Source: a virus. From it: a DNA stretch of 43,791 nucleotides. Every line of letters begins with the position of its first letter. The first letter of the stretch is position 1. The notes below the pieces were generated by a model. That model saw nothing but the letters and a program-made list of their open reading frames with translations, did no database searches and was not told where the DNA came from. The translations under genes and the position numbers were made by a program. This document shows, in pieces, positions 7,495 to 32,465 of the stretch. Location: IMG/VR virus record IMGVR_UViG_3300043470_002297, positions 1 to 43,791 of that record; one strand, given 5' to 3'.

Positions 7495-7931
7495 TTATCT
7501 ACAACTGCATAGGTTATTGATGATAATAAGATGCCAGTATCGACCAATGGCTTGCTAGATCCTTTTTTTGCAATAGTAGCTGGAGCTAGTGCCGGAGATG
7601 TTACTGCAACTAAACTTTTTTGAATATCGCCTTGCGCTAATAGCCCAACTCGATTTAATCCTACGTTAATATCACTATCATTTCGAATGCTTTTATCTAT
7701 TTCTTTTGTCATAACAGACAGCCACTTTTGCCCGTTCTGATTAACCGCTGGTGTAAAAAATGGACGTGCTGGAATTTTTAAAGTGCCAAATTCGTTGTCA
7801 GAGGCTACTTGAGCGACTGAGTCTCCGTTTTGATACTTCGCATTTTCAAATATTCCGACCCTTAAAGCTTTTTTATTCAACTCTTTAAGTTTACGAGCAA
7901 AAGCAGATGTATTATCTTTAAGTATTTTCAC
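7491..7931 (-). CDS. Neck / tail completion protein (HK97 gp10-like)
   Basis: A 146-residue basic protein with recognisable landmarks. ALRVGIFENA comes near the N-terminus, then VAQVASDNEFGTLKIPARPFF at about residues 39-59. Late in the protein comes PLVDTGILLSSITYAV. This series (GI, then EFGT-x-x-IPARPF, then P-L-x-D-T-G-x-L-x-x-S-I-x-Y) is the pattern of the gp10-like neck/tail completion proteins of many siphoviruses and myoviruses. It joins the portal vertex to the tail. Confidence 0.7.
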   Translation of the reverse strand: MKILKDNTSAFARKLKELNKKALRVGIFENAKYQNGDSVAQVASDNEFGTLKIPARPFFTPAVNQNGQKWLSVMTKEIDKSIRNDSDINVGLNRVGLLAQGDIQKSLVAVTSPALAPATIAKKGSSKPLVDTGILLSSITYAVVDK

Positions 7932-18928: not shown

Positions 18929-20410
18929 ATGGCATTAAGCCCACAAGAGAATTCTCGAATTATAGAAATCGAGAACAAATTAAATATTGCACAACTTAAA
19001 ACAGATTATATAGTAAACACTAATATAGTATTAACTAATCTTACTAGTAATTTATACAGCATTACAGAAACAGTATTAGATGATGCAACAGTAACAATGA
19101 ATTCTACTTATCTATTAGTAGCTCAAACAAACACAGCAGAAAACGGCTTATATATCTGCAGAGGCACTGCACCAACGCCCACTTTGTCTAGGCAAAGTGC
19201 TTTTATGTCTTATATAAATATAAATAATACTAAAATAAGCAAACTTAATACAGATTATTATTATTTATTTACAACTACAACACCATTCACTTTAAATACG
19301 ACAGCAATAACAGCTACAAGAATTGACGTAATCGAAACTGGTATTAGAACAATAAATAATCAAATTGAATTAAATCAAACTATAGAAATAAGCGTCTCGG
19401 GCAATACTCCGAATATTATATCAGATTCTGGTTTTCATATTATATCTTTACCTTTAGAGATTCCTACTCCAATACTTTCAGCTCATGTAAGCACGGGTTA
19501 TATCCCCTACAATTCTCCGCAACCATCGCCTTTTACTGGGATTGTCTCTTTATTCATTCAATTACCAAAAAATCATTCAAAAAGATTTTTGGATTATTCA
19601 CCTTTTATCGAACTTAGATTAAAACAATCTAATATTAAAAAATATAAGACGAATTTTAAAGATAAAGTTAAAATAACATCACCAGCGAACCCAACGGGCT
19701 GTGTGGCAGGAGTGACAAATAAATATAAAGGTGCAAATATTGGCAATACATTTTACACTCAACCAACCGAGATGATTTTAGACCAAGGTTTTATACTTTA
19801 CGATCATCAAAATCAAAATTTTGCAACAAATTCATTGCAGGGTAGTTGGGACGCGCTTAATAATGCGCCAGATTTAAATAGCATAAGCCCGACTGTCGGC
19901 AATTATTTTATTGTGTCAGTATCGGGCAATACTCAAATTGGCACGATTAATTCGTGGGAAGTTGGCGATAAAGCGTACGGAGACGGAAATAATTGGCAAA
20001 GATTAAGATCGCAATTTAACGAAAATGGAACAGATAGAATAATGAGATTTGATTTTAACCCTCATCAATTTTTTGGTGCAAGTTATAATTTACCATTGCC
20101 TTTTGAATTCCCAGTTTTGCAGCAAAGCTGGGACACCAAGTCTGAAACTTTTAGGAATAGAAGAAGTATCGGATGTAACTCAGCTTTTTATCGTCAATCT
20201 ATAAGAAATGATCAAGGTGGTATTATACCAACGAGATCCAAAAAATTAATTGTCGGTGTTAGAATATGTTGTTTAGAACCGACGACTAGTCGCAATTTAT
20301 TATTTAGCGAAGATAGTAATTTTATTGCTATAGAGCCAGTTTTATGTAAAACTCAAAACCCAAATCAAAATTTCTATTATGGTTGGACTATATCAGCGGC
20401 TTATAAATAA
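18929..20410 (+). CDS. Tail fibre / receptor-binding protein
   Basis: A 493-residue protein with a helical N-terminus, then TYLLVAQTNTAENGLYICRG at about residues 60-79. This is the 'VLVxxQTxxxENGIY' motif common in phage fibres, and it is followed by a Thr/Asn-rich beta region. A later segment (about residues 330-380, YFIVSVSGNTQIGTINSWEV, then GDKAYGDGNNWQRL) is a second fibre motif. The C-terminal domain is probably the receptor-binding tip. It has an AGGGAAA Shine-Dalgarno 15 bases after the previous stop. A ncRNA promoter starts six bases after its own stop codon. Confidence 0.7.
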   Translation: MALSPQENSRIIEIENKLNIAQLKTDYIVNTNIVLTNLTSNLYSITETVLDDATVTMNSTYLLVAQTNTAENGLYICRGTAPTPTLSRQSAFMSYININNTKISKLNTDYYYLFTTTTPFTLNTTAITATRIDVIETGIRTINNQIELNQTIEISVSGNTPNIISDSGFHIISLPLEIPTPILSAHVSTGYIPYNSPQPSPFTGIVSLFIQLPKNHSKRFLDYSPFIELRLKQSNIKKYKTNFKDKVKITSPANPTGCVAGVTNKYKGANIGNTFYTQPTEMILDQGFILYDHQNQNFATNSLQGSWDALNNAPDLNSISPTVGNYFIVSVSGNTQIGTINSWEVGDKAYGDGNNWQRLRSQFNENGTDRIMRFDFNPHQFFGASYNLPLPFEFPVLQQSWDTKSETFRNRRSIGCNSAFYRQSIRNDQGGIIPTRSKKLIVGVRICCLEPTTSRNLLFSEDSNFIAIEPVLCKTQNPNQNFYYGWTISAAYK

Positions 20411-20415
20411 AAAGC

Positions 20416-20444
20416 TTGACTTTGCGATAAATAGATATTACAAT
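20416..20444 (+). promoter_or_regulatory. Promoter of the three-hairpin RNA
   Basis: TTGACT, 17 bases, then TACAAT: one mismatch to consensus in each box and ideal spacing. The likely start point is about 20451, just before the first hairpin. No coding region follows in this direction before the terminator at 20590-20615. Confidence 0.75.
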
Positions 20445-20453
20445 AGAAATATT

Positions 20454-20546
20454 AGGCTCGTCCGTGTGAGGGGCTTATCTATTTAATCACCTCCGTGTGA
20501 GAAGGTTATCAAATTGAGCTCGTCCGTGTGAGGGGCTCATCTCACC
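20454..20546 (+). repeat. Three 31-nt tandem units with core TCCGTGTGAG
   Basis: The core starts at 20461, 20492 and 20523, exactly 31 bases apart. Each core is flanked by unit-specific stem halves and followed by a (T/C)ATC motif. The period is close to three turns of B-DNA, so a protein-binding array on DNA is the alternative to RNA hairpins. Confidence 0.9.
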
Positions 20547-20581
20547 TGCTTTTCCATGCCAACCTATATTTTTTTATTACT

Positions 20582-20673
20582 TTAAAAGTGGCAGGATTAA
20601 AGCACCCTGCCTTTTGCGCATACGAAAGAACTATAATGATACATATCAACTAGATAATCACTCTAGTCGATAT
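20582..20673 (-). ncRNA. Convergent small RNA candidate with 5' hairpin
   Basis: The expected start of the leftward promoter at 20680-20708 is 20673, six bases after its -10. That base is the first base of a hairpin with 12-bp arms (20643-20673, loop GTGATTA; one G-U pair). After about 30 single-stranded bases the RNA reaches the GGCAGG/CCTGCC hairpin, followed by ACTTTT on this strand. If that hairpin terminates, the RNA is about 90 nt; if it reads through, it becomes antisense to the three-hairpin RNA and to the end of the fibre gene. No ORF with a ribosome-binding site is visible. Confidence 0.5.
20590..20615 (+). terminator. Rho-independent terminator (possibly bidirectional)
   Basis: GGCAGG, a 10-base loop, CCTGCC, then TTTT. 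An A run precedes the stem, so the leftward RNA also meets a short broken U tract (ACTTTT). It ends the three-hairpin RNA and perhaps the convergent RNA. Confidence 0.7.
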
Positions 20674-20734: not shown

Positions 20735-21301
20735 TCAGCTAAATCGACCATCTCTTGCTACAGCATCCAAAAAAAGCGCATATAGCTCTTTGTTTTTCTC
20801 AATCAAAACCGGCAGATCTCTAGTTAATTTAAACTTTTTGTTATCATACGCAAGCCAGAAATTAGCCTTGTGTTCCGTTGATTTTAAAGCAAACAGTTTA
20901 AAATTAAATCCTGTACTGCCATCTTTTTTGATGTATGATTTGTAACAATAAGCCCACTCAGTATTTAATTCCCCACCGTCTATCCAGCCCTCGCCTTCTG
21001 GCTTCTTTCCGTCAAAAAATCTAGGCTGTTTTGCCTGCCGTCTTTTGTAGTTTTTTAGCTTGTCTATATCAACTCTCCAGCCTCCGCAAATTTTCTCGAC
21101 AAACAATCCATCCCTAACCATCGCATAAACCATGCTATTTTTATTAGATAAAGCTAAAAGATTTTTAATTGTACGCTCAGCATAGCCCTTATTTTTTAAT
21201 AGCTCGTATAATTCAGATCGTCTCACGTCAGCAAATGCCCCGCAAAAGGGTCTAGAATCGCTCAGAATCAATTTTAAAACGTCAGACGAGTAATCATTCA
21301 T
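20735..21301 (-). CDS. Hypothetical protein of the leftward regulatory-region operon
   Basis: A 188-residue basic protein. I place the start at the ATG at 21301, which overlaps the stop of the upstream gene (ATGA) and has AGAGGGG just upstream; a longer frame from 21406 would run through that upstream gene. The first 85 residues are helical, with SELYELLKNKGYAERTIKNL and then LFVEKICGGWRV, which may form a winged helix. The rest is rich in aromatic and Lys residues (WAYCYKSYIKKDGSTGFNFK). I do not recognise the family. A DNA-binding role is plausible from the first half and the location, but not shown. Confidence 0.65.
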   Translation of the reverse strand: MNDYSSDVLKLILSDSRPFCGAFADVRRSELYELLKNKGYAERTIKNLLALSNKNSMVYAMVRDGLFVEKICGGWRVDIDKLKNYKRRQAKQPRFFDGKKPEGEGWIDGGELNTEWAYCYKSYIKKDGSTGFNFKLFALKSTEHKANFWLAYDNKKFKLTRDLPVLIEKNKELYALFLDAVARDGRFS

Positions 21302-21510
21302 CTCAACCCCTCTTTTTCGATTGTAGCCATCATTTCTGCTCTTAAATCTGCATCGACAACAATGAAGCCATGTTGATATCGTCTTAGTAGCCCCCATTGC
21401 GTGCAATCATCTATAAACCTATCCGCTTCGGCTTTTGCTTTTTTGTAATCTAACGACTCTTCAAAATGAGCTAAAATCGCAGATCTTGTAATATACGCAG
21501 TTGTAGTCAA
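21298..21510 (-). CDS. Small hypothetical protein (TTG start)
   Basis: A 70-residue protein starting at TTG (21510), with GGAGA about nine bases upstream. A nearby ATGATG just upstream is in another frame and soon meets a stop. The sequence is helical (YKKAKAEADRFIDDCTQWGL, then LRRYQHGFIVV) and ends in AEMMATIEKEGLR. It might be a small winged-helix-like regulator, but the evidence is thin. It is co-transcribed with the next gene through a 4-base overlap. Confidence 0.55.
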   Translation of the reverse strand: MTTTAYITRSAILAHFEESLDYKKAKAEADRFIDDCTQWGLLRRYQHGFIVVDADLRAEMMATIEKEGLR

Positions 21511-21723: not shown

Positions 21724-21816
21724 CAATTTTACCGGCAAACGGTACAAAAAAATACCCTTATTGCTGCCACCCCACCCCCCACAGTCATATGTCTATTATG
21801 TGCGGTAGGGCATTTC

Positions 21817-21845
21817 TTGACTTTCGTTATCATTTAACATATAAT
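21817..21845 (+). promoter_or_regulatory. Promoter of the LytTR regulator gene
   Basis: TTGACT, 17 bases, TATAAT. Transcription would begin near 21852, shortly before the Shine-Dalgarno TGGAG and the ATG at 21873. This decides the start codon: upstream in-frame ATGs (21789 onward) lie before the promoter. Confidence 0.75.
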
Positions 21846-21872
21846 AATATCAACAATAAATGGAGTATAAAA

Positions 21873-22487
21873 ATGAACGAAATTAGGGTTAGAAAAAATG
21901 GCAATATAGTCAATATTAACATCTCAGAAGTAATATATTTTTGTCATGATGACTATAAAATAATAGCTGTAACAGCAGATGCCGAATATACGTTAATAGA
22001 CCCTATATCGTTATCTTTGCTTGCACAGATATACAGCGCACGCATGTTGCGCATACATCGTAGTTATTTAGTCGCTAAATTAGCTGTTAAAGCTATTAAT
22101 CGCTATGATAAAAATCACGTGATATGTACGCTTATAAACTCTAGCAAAATACTGCCAGTGGGTCGTGATCAAGTAGCTGAATTATTATTGATTTTAAACC
22201 CAATCAAACATATTCCAACCGAATACGATTTTAAACAGTTTATTAATAATAATCTTGGCTTAAAGAAATCAGAGCTAGCAAAAAAATGGGGCTGCAGTTT
22301 GTCTACGTTGCAATTAAAACTTAAAAAACATGGCTTATTAGAGCTAGTTGACGCTCCTGCGCCAATCGATCTTAAGCCGATCGTCGAAAATATAAAGCTA
22401 GATCCATATGTTAGTGATAGAGTATTATCTATAAGATATAAATTGCCTTTAAAAGCCATTCGTCAGATAAGAGAGAATAATAGTTGA
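21873..22487 (+). CDS. LytTR-domain transcription regulator with C-terminal helix-turn-helix
   Basis: A 204-residue protein. Residues 3-108 form a LytTR DNA-binding domain: VRKNGNIVNINISEVIYF, then a short 'DDYKIIAVTADAEYTL' strand pair, the hallmark LRIHRSYLVA (59-68), and ILPVGRDQVAELL (93-105), matching the PVSRRY-x-x-x-L end of the family. Residues about 132-155 (KSELAKKWGCSLSTLQLKLK) look like a helix-turn-helix, and 181-203 like a further one. LytTR domains normally follow a response-regulator receiver; here there is none, so activity is not set by phosphorylation of this protein. It stands where lysogeny or early-control regulators usually sit, divergent from the 21510 operon. Confidence 0.75.
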   Translation: MNEIRVRKNGNIVNINISEVIYFCHDDYKIIAVTADAEYTLIDPISLSLLAQIYSARMLRIHRSYLVAKLAVKAINRYDKNHVICTLINSSKILPVGRDQVAELLLILNPIKHIPTEYDFKQFINNNLGLKKSELAKKWGCSLSTLQLKLKKHGLLELVDAPAPIDLKPIVENIKLDPYVSDRVLSIRYKLPLKAIRQIRENNS

Positions 22488-31996: not shown

Positions 31997-32050
31997 AAAA
32001 GGAGAGTAATAACAATATGACTGTTATAAATTATATTATACTCTCTTTTT
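31997..32050 (+). terminator. Rightward terminator of the early operon
   Basis: AAAAGGAGAGTA and TACTCTCTTTTT pair over 12 positions (one G-T) and end in five T residues. An inner ATAAC/GTTAT pair strengthens the stem. It lies between convergent operons and the T tract touches the stop codon of the opposing gene. Confidence 0.65.
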
Positions 32051-32465
32051 ATAGGTTTGGCAATAGATTTTTACGGATTAATTTTGGACTTACTTCTATT
32101 TCGTCTCCGGTTTTTAATTTTATAAAATAACTAATATTAGTACTGTTATTTATATACTTTTTTGCTATTGAATCTATAAAGTTTTTATTTAAAATTAAAT
32201 CATTTTTTGCTTTAAAAAAAACGGGGTCATTCAGCTCTTGCAAAATCTTTGTTAAATTAATATTTTTATCAGCTAAGATTATATCGTAAGTTATTTTTAA
32301 ACGATTATTATTTAACATTAAATGACATTGATTGCCAATACCAATACTTTCAAAAAAAACAATATTTTTAATTGTGTAATTACAATCTGTCAAATAAGAG
32401 ACTGCAGGATTTATTTCTATTTTGCCATTTGTCGTTTTAAATAGATCGCTTTTGCTTATAAGCAT
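32049..32465 (-). CDS. Second LytTR-like regulator
   Basis: A 138-residue protein. From about residue 30 the sequence follows the LytTR strand order: IKNIVFFESIGIGNQCHLML, NNNRLKITYDI, then PVFFKAKNDLILNKNFIDSI at the place of the 'F-x-R-x-HRSYLVN-x-x-x-I' helix-strand. FIKLKTGDEIEVSPKLIRKN matches 'L-x-x-G-x-x-I-P-V-S-x-x-x-x-K'. The HRS triad is replaced by KND, so it is a divergent member. No receiver domain. It is the last gene of a leftward operon and also has its own promoter with an inverted-repeat operator, so self-regulation is likely. Confidence 0.5.
   Translation of the reverse strand: MLISKSDLFKTTNGKIEINPAVSYLTDCNYTIKNIVFFESIGIGNQCHLMLNNNRLKITYDIILADKNINLTKILQELNDPVFFKAKNDLILNKNFIDSIAKKYINNSTNISYFIKLKTGDEIEVSPKLIRKNLLPNL

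Follow-up and report, generated by a model that had tools for sequence, protein, structure and literature searches.

Three tandem repeats in a myophage genome that may encode a minus-strand decoy RNA for CsrA/RsmA

Introduction

What is the role of three hairpin-forming repeats that lie in a gap between genes of a phage genome, and from which strand are they read? The window analysed here, the whole of IMG/VR virus record IMGVR_UViG_3300043470_002297 (43,791 bases), carries such a locus just after a fibre gene. An earlier note on this DNA had described it as a rightward small RNA with its own promoter and terminator, which shows one loop three times as a decoy or sponge does. A decoy of this kind was still the best class of explanation in our analysis, but the plus strand that the note had assigned to it was not settled. 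The reading that we prefer, with a probability of about 0.4, is a phage-encoded, CsrB/RsmZ-like decoy RNA for CsrA/RsmA, transcribed from the minus strand.

CsrA/RsmA controls carbon storage, motility, biofilm formation and secretion in many bacteria, and if our reading is true, phages attack this network with RNA. Some phages carry csrA genes (PMC7366521). In the literature that we searched, we met no CsrA decoy RNA encoded by a phage, and neither Csr nor Rsm is mentioned in a 2025 review of sRNAs derived from phages.

Genomic context and likely host

The genome has the gene set of a myophage, with the sheath, baseplate, portal and terminase genes on the minus strand and the replication genes on the plus strand; the change of gene direction already lies at 17.0 kb. 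The primase is 44% identical to that of Salicola phage CGphi29, the sheath protein 27-29% identical to those of Shewanella phage 1/41 and Pseudomonas phage KLEP17-4, and the portal protein approximately 31% identical to those of Serratia phages. The virion and primase genes are thus nearest to those of phages of Pseudomonas, Shewanella, Serratia, Salicola and Alteromonas, although even the nearest proteins are distant, and we infer that the host is likely a gammaproteobacterium.

The gap is bordered by the fibre gene (plus strand, ending at 20410) and by a leftward gene of unassigned family that ends at 20735. No ORF of note was found in it on either strand, in agreement with the earlier note. 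The leftward gene (20735-21406, minus strand) encodes a 223-aa protein without matches in Pfam, PHROGs or PADLOC, and a short ORF that overlaps it upstream (21298-21510, minus strand) had no PADLOC match. We found no defence-family genes adjoining the repeat locus, and no csrA gene in this genome or in the five phages compared with it. A LytTR-domain regulator is encoded at 21789-22487, with a weaker second LytTR match at 32049-32465; KLEP17-4 also encodes a LytTR-domain regulator. The cumulative GC-skew minimum lies at 21782, 1.2 kb from the repeats, and is a possible replication origin.

Repeat structure and folding

The three 31-nt direct repeats span 20451-20542 with a start-to-start spacing of exactly 31 (units 20451-20481, 20482-20512 and 20513-20543). 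Repeats 2 and 3 are 70% and 90% identical to repeat 1, respectively, unit 2 being the divergent copy. The core TCCGTGTGAG, reported earlier as common to all of the hairpin loops, was invariant in 3/3 copies; these 10 nt are flanked by diverged arms, and TCCGTGTGAG does not occur elsewhere in the window even when one mismatch is allowed. The plus strand of repeat 2 also holds ATCACCTCC at 20486-20494, which matches the anti-Shine-Dalgarno end of 16S rRNA exactly; the minus strand reads GGAGGTGAT there, with no start codon after it.

All three hairpins folded on the plus strand, as claimed, with energies of -10.2, -4.0 and -12.8 kcal/mol for units 1, 2 and 3, respectively. The corresponding minus-strand folds had energies of -1.2, -8.2 and -6.9 kcal/mol, so that units 1 and 3 are more stable on the plus strand and unit 2 on the minus strand. 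Taken as one sequence, the 200-nt stretch folded only slightly better than shuffled sequences (z -1.64). In one register, 92.6% of the cells paired on the plus strand and 81.5% on the minus strand. The earlier observation that the stems vary yet still pair holds for two pairs that were changed on both sides, but two other pairs are broken in copy 2, and there is little covariation in all, as an equally good result was obtained in 45 of 500 shuffles. The argument that G-U pairs reveal the strand proved weak, since approximately four cells favour the plus strand, or three if a cell common to copies 1 and 3 was inherited from a shared ancestor, and one cell favours the minus strand, a difference that is not significant. 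Because only three related sequences contribute to them, the pairing counts leave the strand undecided.

Convergent promoters and a terminator-like hairpin

The promoters are more informative than the pairing counts. To score them, we trained a weight matrix on seven strong early-region sites of this phage that point rightward (plus strand, at 22484, 25244, 33335, 33469, 34491, 36426 and 37521), which share TTGACW-N17-TATAMT followed by an extended ATAAATATAG-like start region. The plus-strand promoter noted previously, TTGACT-N17-TACAAT, was recovered at 20416-20444 with 10/12 matching positions and ranked 11th of approximately 87,000 positions; its predicted start, at approximately 20451, is the first base of repeat 1. 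A leftward promoter that the earlier note had overlooked, TTGACA-N17-TATAAT at 20708-20680 (minus strand; predicted start at approximately 20673), matched 12/12 and ranked 8th of the same positions, which makes it the best site outside the training set. The genome has five 12/12 promoters in all; the remaining four lie in the early region and point rightward. Downstream of the leftward one there is no convincing ORF. Both promoters at the repeats probably work, and they face each other across approximately 235 bp; the repeats may therefore be transcribed in both directions.

A GGCAGG/CCTGCC hairpin lies between the two promoters at 20590-20615, with a U-tract that follows immediately on the plus strand and two bases off on the minus strand. 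The terminator proposed earlier thus has its hairpin, but only TTTTGCGC comes after it and the site fell below the threshold of our terminator scan; we would expect modest termination from it, whichever the direction of transcription. A 14-bp hairpin, some of whose pairs are G-U (20639-20673, minus strand), begins at the predicted leftward start; it could form the 5' end of a minus-strand RNA or serve as an operator dyad there.

These features bear on three other explanations of the locus. The repeats could form a rightward small RNA (approximately 20451-20615) with three hairpins that show UCCGUGUGAG, either as a multi-copy antisense seed or as a decoy for a protein, and that ends at the 20590-20615 hairpin. 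A promoter of the phage's own type that starts at repeat 1, the greater stability of hairpins 1 and 3 and the larger number of G-U cells on the plus strand, and a rightly placed terminator hairpin with an immediate U-tract speak for this RNA. However, its loop has no recognisable partner, pairing of the loop with translation starts of the phage was no better than that of shuffled loops, Rfam gave no match, and the strand counts in its favour are not significant. With more stable hairpins and a fuller anatomy but no partner found, we regard the rightward RNA as rather doubtful, but as the main rival of the minus-strand decoy.

The repeats might also have no function as RNA and be the decaying remains of a palindrome that arose by chance and was duplicated in tandem, next to ordinary phage promoters and a bidirectional terminator. 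The modest covariation and the lack of relatives that show conservation are in keeping with such an origin, whereas an invariant 10-nt core beside diverged arms is unexpected under neutral decay, as are two good promoters aimed at the repeats; we consider it unlikely. Still less probable is that the locus acts as DNA, in the form of three 31-bp iterons or operators for a replication or regulatory protein of the phage. A spacing close to three helical turns, an invariant core with variable flanks as in a protein footprint, and the GC-skew minimum 1.2 kb away would suit such sites, but there is no DnaA box nearby and no recognised iteron-binding Rep, and such sites would not account for arms that can pair between two promoters facing each other.

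CsrA/RsmA consensus sites on the minus strand

Read leftward, the three copies contain ACACGGACGA (20467-20458), ACACGGAGGT (20498-20489) and ACACGGACGA (20529-20520), all three of which are full matches to the CsrA/RsmE consensus A/U-CANGGANG-U/A. The consensus 5'-A/UCANGGANGU/A-3' was derived from RsmE and is used for CsrA/RsmA targets (PMC6849547, PMC4353343). The copies vary solely at the N and A/U positions that are free in the consensus. A motif scan added a fourth, weaker CsrA-like site, CATGGA, at 20553-20558 on the minus strand. The statement that no named RNA family has this loop was correct for Rfam, which gave no match, but it missed that the loop, when read as its reverse complement, is a motif well known to bind protein.

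When the letters were redrawn and the pattern of identity among the three copies was kept, a match on either strand arose by chance at approximately 0.0002 (0.02% of trials). The motif was recognised post hoc, and allowing for tens of alternative motifs raises this to p of approximately 0.01; the three copies, having arisen by tandem duplication, count as one evolutionary event. The whole window has four full sites, three of them in the repeats. Four CANGGA motifs occur within 110 nt, a count reached in 0 of 200 Markov sequences, and nowhere else in 1.07 Mb, mostly of distantly related phages, did two full sites occur within 110 nt. If the locus encodes the rightward RNA, the minus-strand match would be a coincidence.

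Among bacterial RNAs that present one loop repeatedly to a protein, CsrA decoys are arguably the best known, which is why we prefer the minus-strand decoy, and they are known in the bacterial group to which the hosts of the nearest phages belong. The CsrA/RsmA site is the sole recognisable partner motif at the locus, and it is on the strand with the better promoter. We propose that a small RNA would start from the 20708-20680 promoter early in infection and that the leftward polymerase would read through the 20590-20615 hairpin. Each tandem unit would then display a CsrA/RsmA site (CACACGGA-N-G in or beside the hairpin loop), with CATGGA as the fourth, and the RNA would bind the CsrA/RsmA dimer of the host and titrate it in the manner of CsrB, RsmZ and RsmV. 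Such titration would free phage or host mRNAs from regulation by CsrA, presumably to the benefit of the phage.

Several features count against the minus-strand decoy. Its hairpins 1 and 3 are less stable than those of the plus strand. The GGA is predicted to be mostly unpaired in copy 1, to pair in part in copy 3 and to be paired in the most stable fold of copy 2, although copy 2 could form a canonical UCAC-[ACGGAG]-GUGA loop at -3.0 kcal/mol. The main structural doubt concerns the terminator-like hairpin, which lies upstream of the sites: if leftward transcripts stopped there, the repeats would be outside the RNA. Beyond the CsrA-type sites, we found no good candidate for a minus-strand terminator.

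The plus-strand loops are exactly complementary to the minus-strand CsrA sites. A leftward RNA that titrates CsrA early could thus be paired later by a convergent rightward RNA, which would end the titration; the rightward RNA may also come by read-through of the fibre operon. We give such an off switch only a small chance.

Search for related loci

Searches of Rfam, IMG/VR, and phage and plasmid records found nothing resembling the locus. In IMG/VR, no relatives were reached through the helicase or fibre proteins, the tandem core, the hairpin 18-mer or the minus-strand 5' hairpin; the single match to the 18-mer was in an unrelated contig of 67% GC and was rejected. An alignment search with the primase returned 80 loci, all only approximately 45% identical, none of which has the motif cluster, and Shewanella phage 1/41 and Pseudomonas phage KLEP17-4 are also without it. 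Pairs of TCCGTGTGAG were dropped as a family since the matches were short duplications, repeats or chance occurrences, and scans for three CACGGANG or three CACACGGA gave mostly coding repeats or exact tandem repeats among the matches listed.

A different array was seen in IMGVR_UViG_3300033886_000045, where an array of at least eight identical 30-bp units lies at 7620-7764 after a capsid-like gene and continues at the other end of the contig. The unit is a perfect hairpin with a CsrA-type loop, CCAGC-ACGGAT-GCTGG. This array is possibly a second phage CsrA decoy, though its units are identical and its GC content is high.

Comparison with known systems

The locus resembles CsrB/CsrC and RsmX/Y/Z/V/W of Gammaproteobacteria in its several CANGGANG sites, in their proposed position in loops and in the short non-coding RNA that would carry them. 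It differs in being phage-borne, in having three full sites and one partial site in tandem 31-nt units, and in its weaker hairpins. It matched none of the Csr/Rsm families of Rfam, which counts against membership in a named family and not against a decoy mode of action. RsmV acts with four such sites (PMC9308961). The TwoAYGGAY RNA (RF01731) likewise has hairpin loops with AYGGAY and is a proposed CsrA binder (PMC4333381), whereas our locus did not match the RF01731 model and has three units instead of two.

Phage-encoded tandem RNA repeats are also found in the pseudo-ToxI of PhiTE, where they act as a mimic (PMC3475682). By this precedent, the repeats could be orphan, type III antitoxin-like repeats with which the phage blocks a ToxN-type toxin of its host, and the promoter, tandem RNA repeats and terminator in a myophage, with no toxin gene, would fit. 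However, type III antitoxins are pseudoknots (PMC5086642), whereas the units here are divergent copies of simple hairpins, as far as folding computed without pseudoknots describes them, and no ToxI-type Rfam match was found. The PhiTE antitoxin has 36-nt units and no CsrA site, and type III antitoxin repeats precede a ToxN-type gene on the same strand, with a terminator in between, whereas the next gene here is on the opposite strand and matches no family. An antitoxin mimic is thus highly improbable.

The prophage anti-sRNA AgvB of E. coli O157 is comparable to the proposed minus-strand decoy as a phage RNA that diverts a host riboregulator, but it acts on the sRNA GcvB rather than on an RNA-binding protein (PMC12197685).
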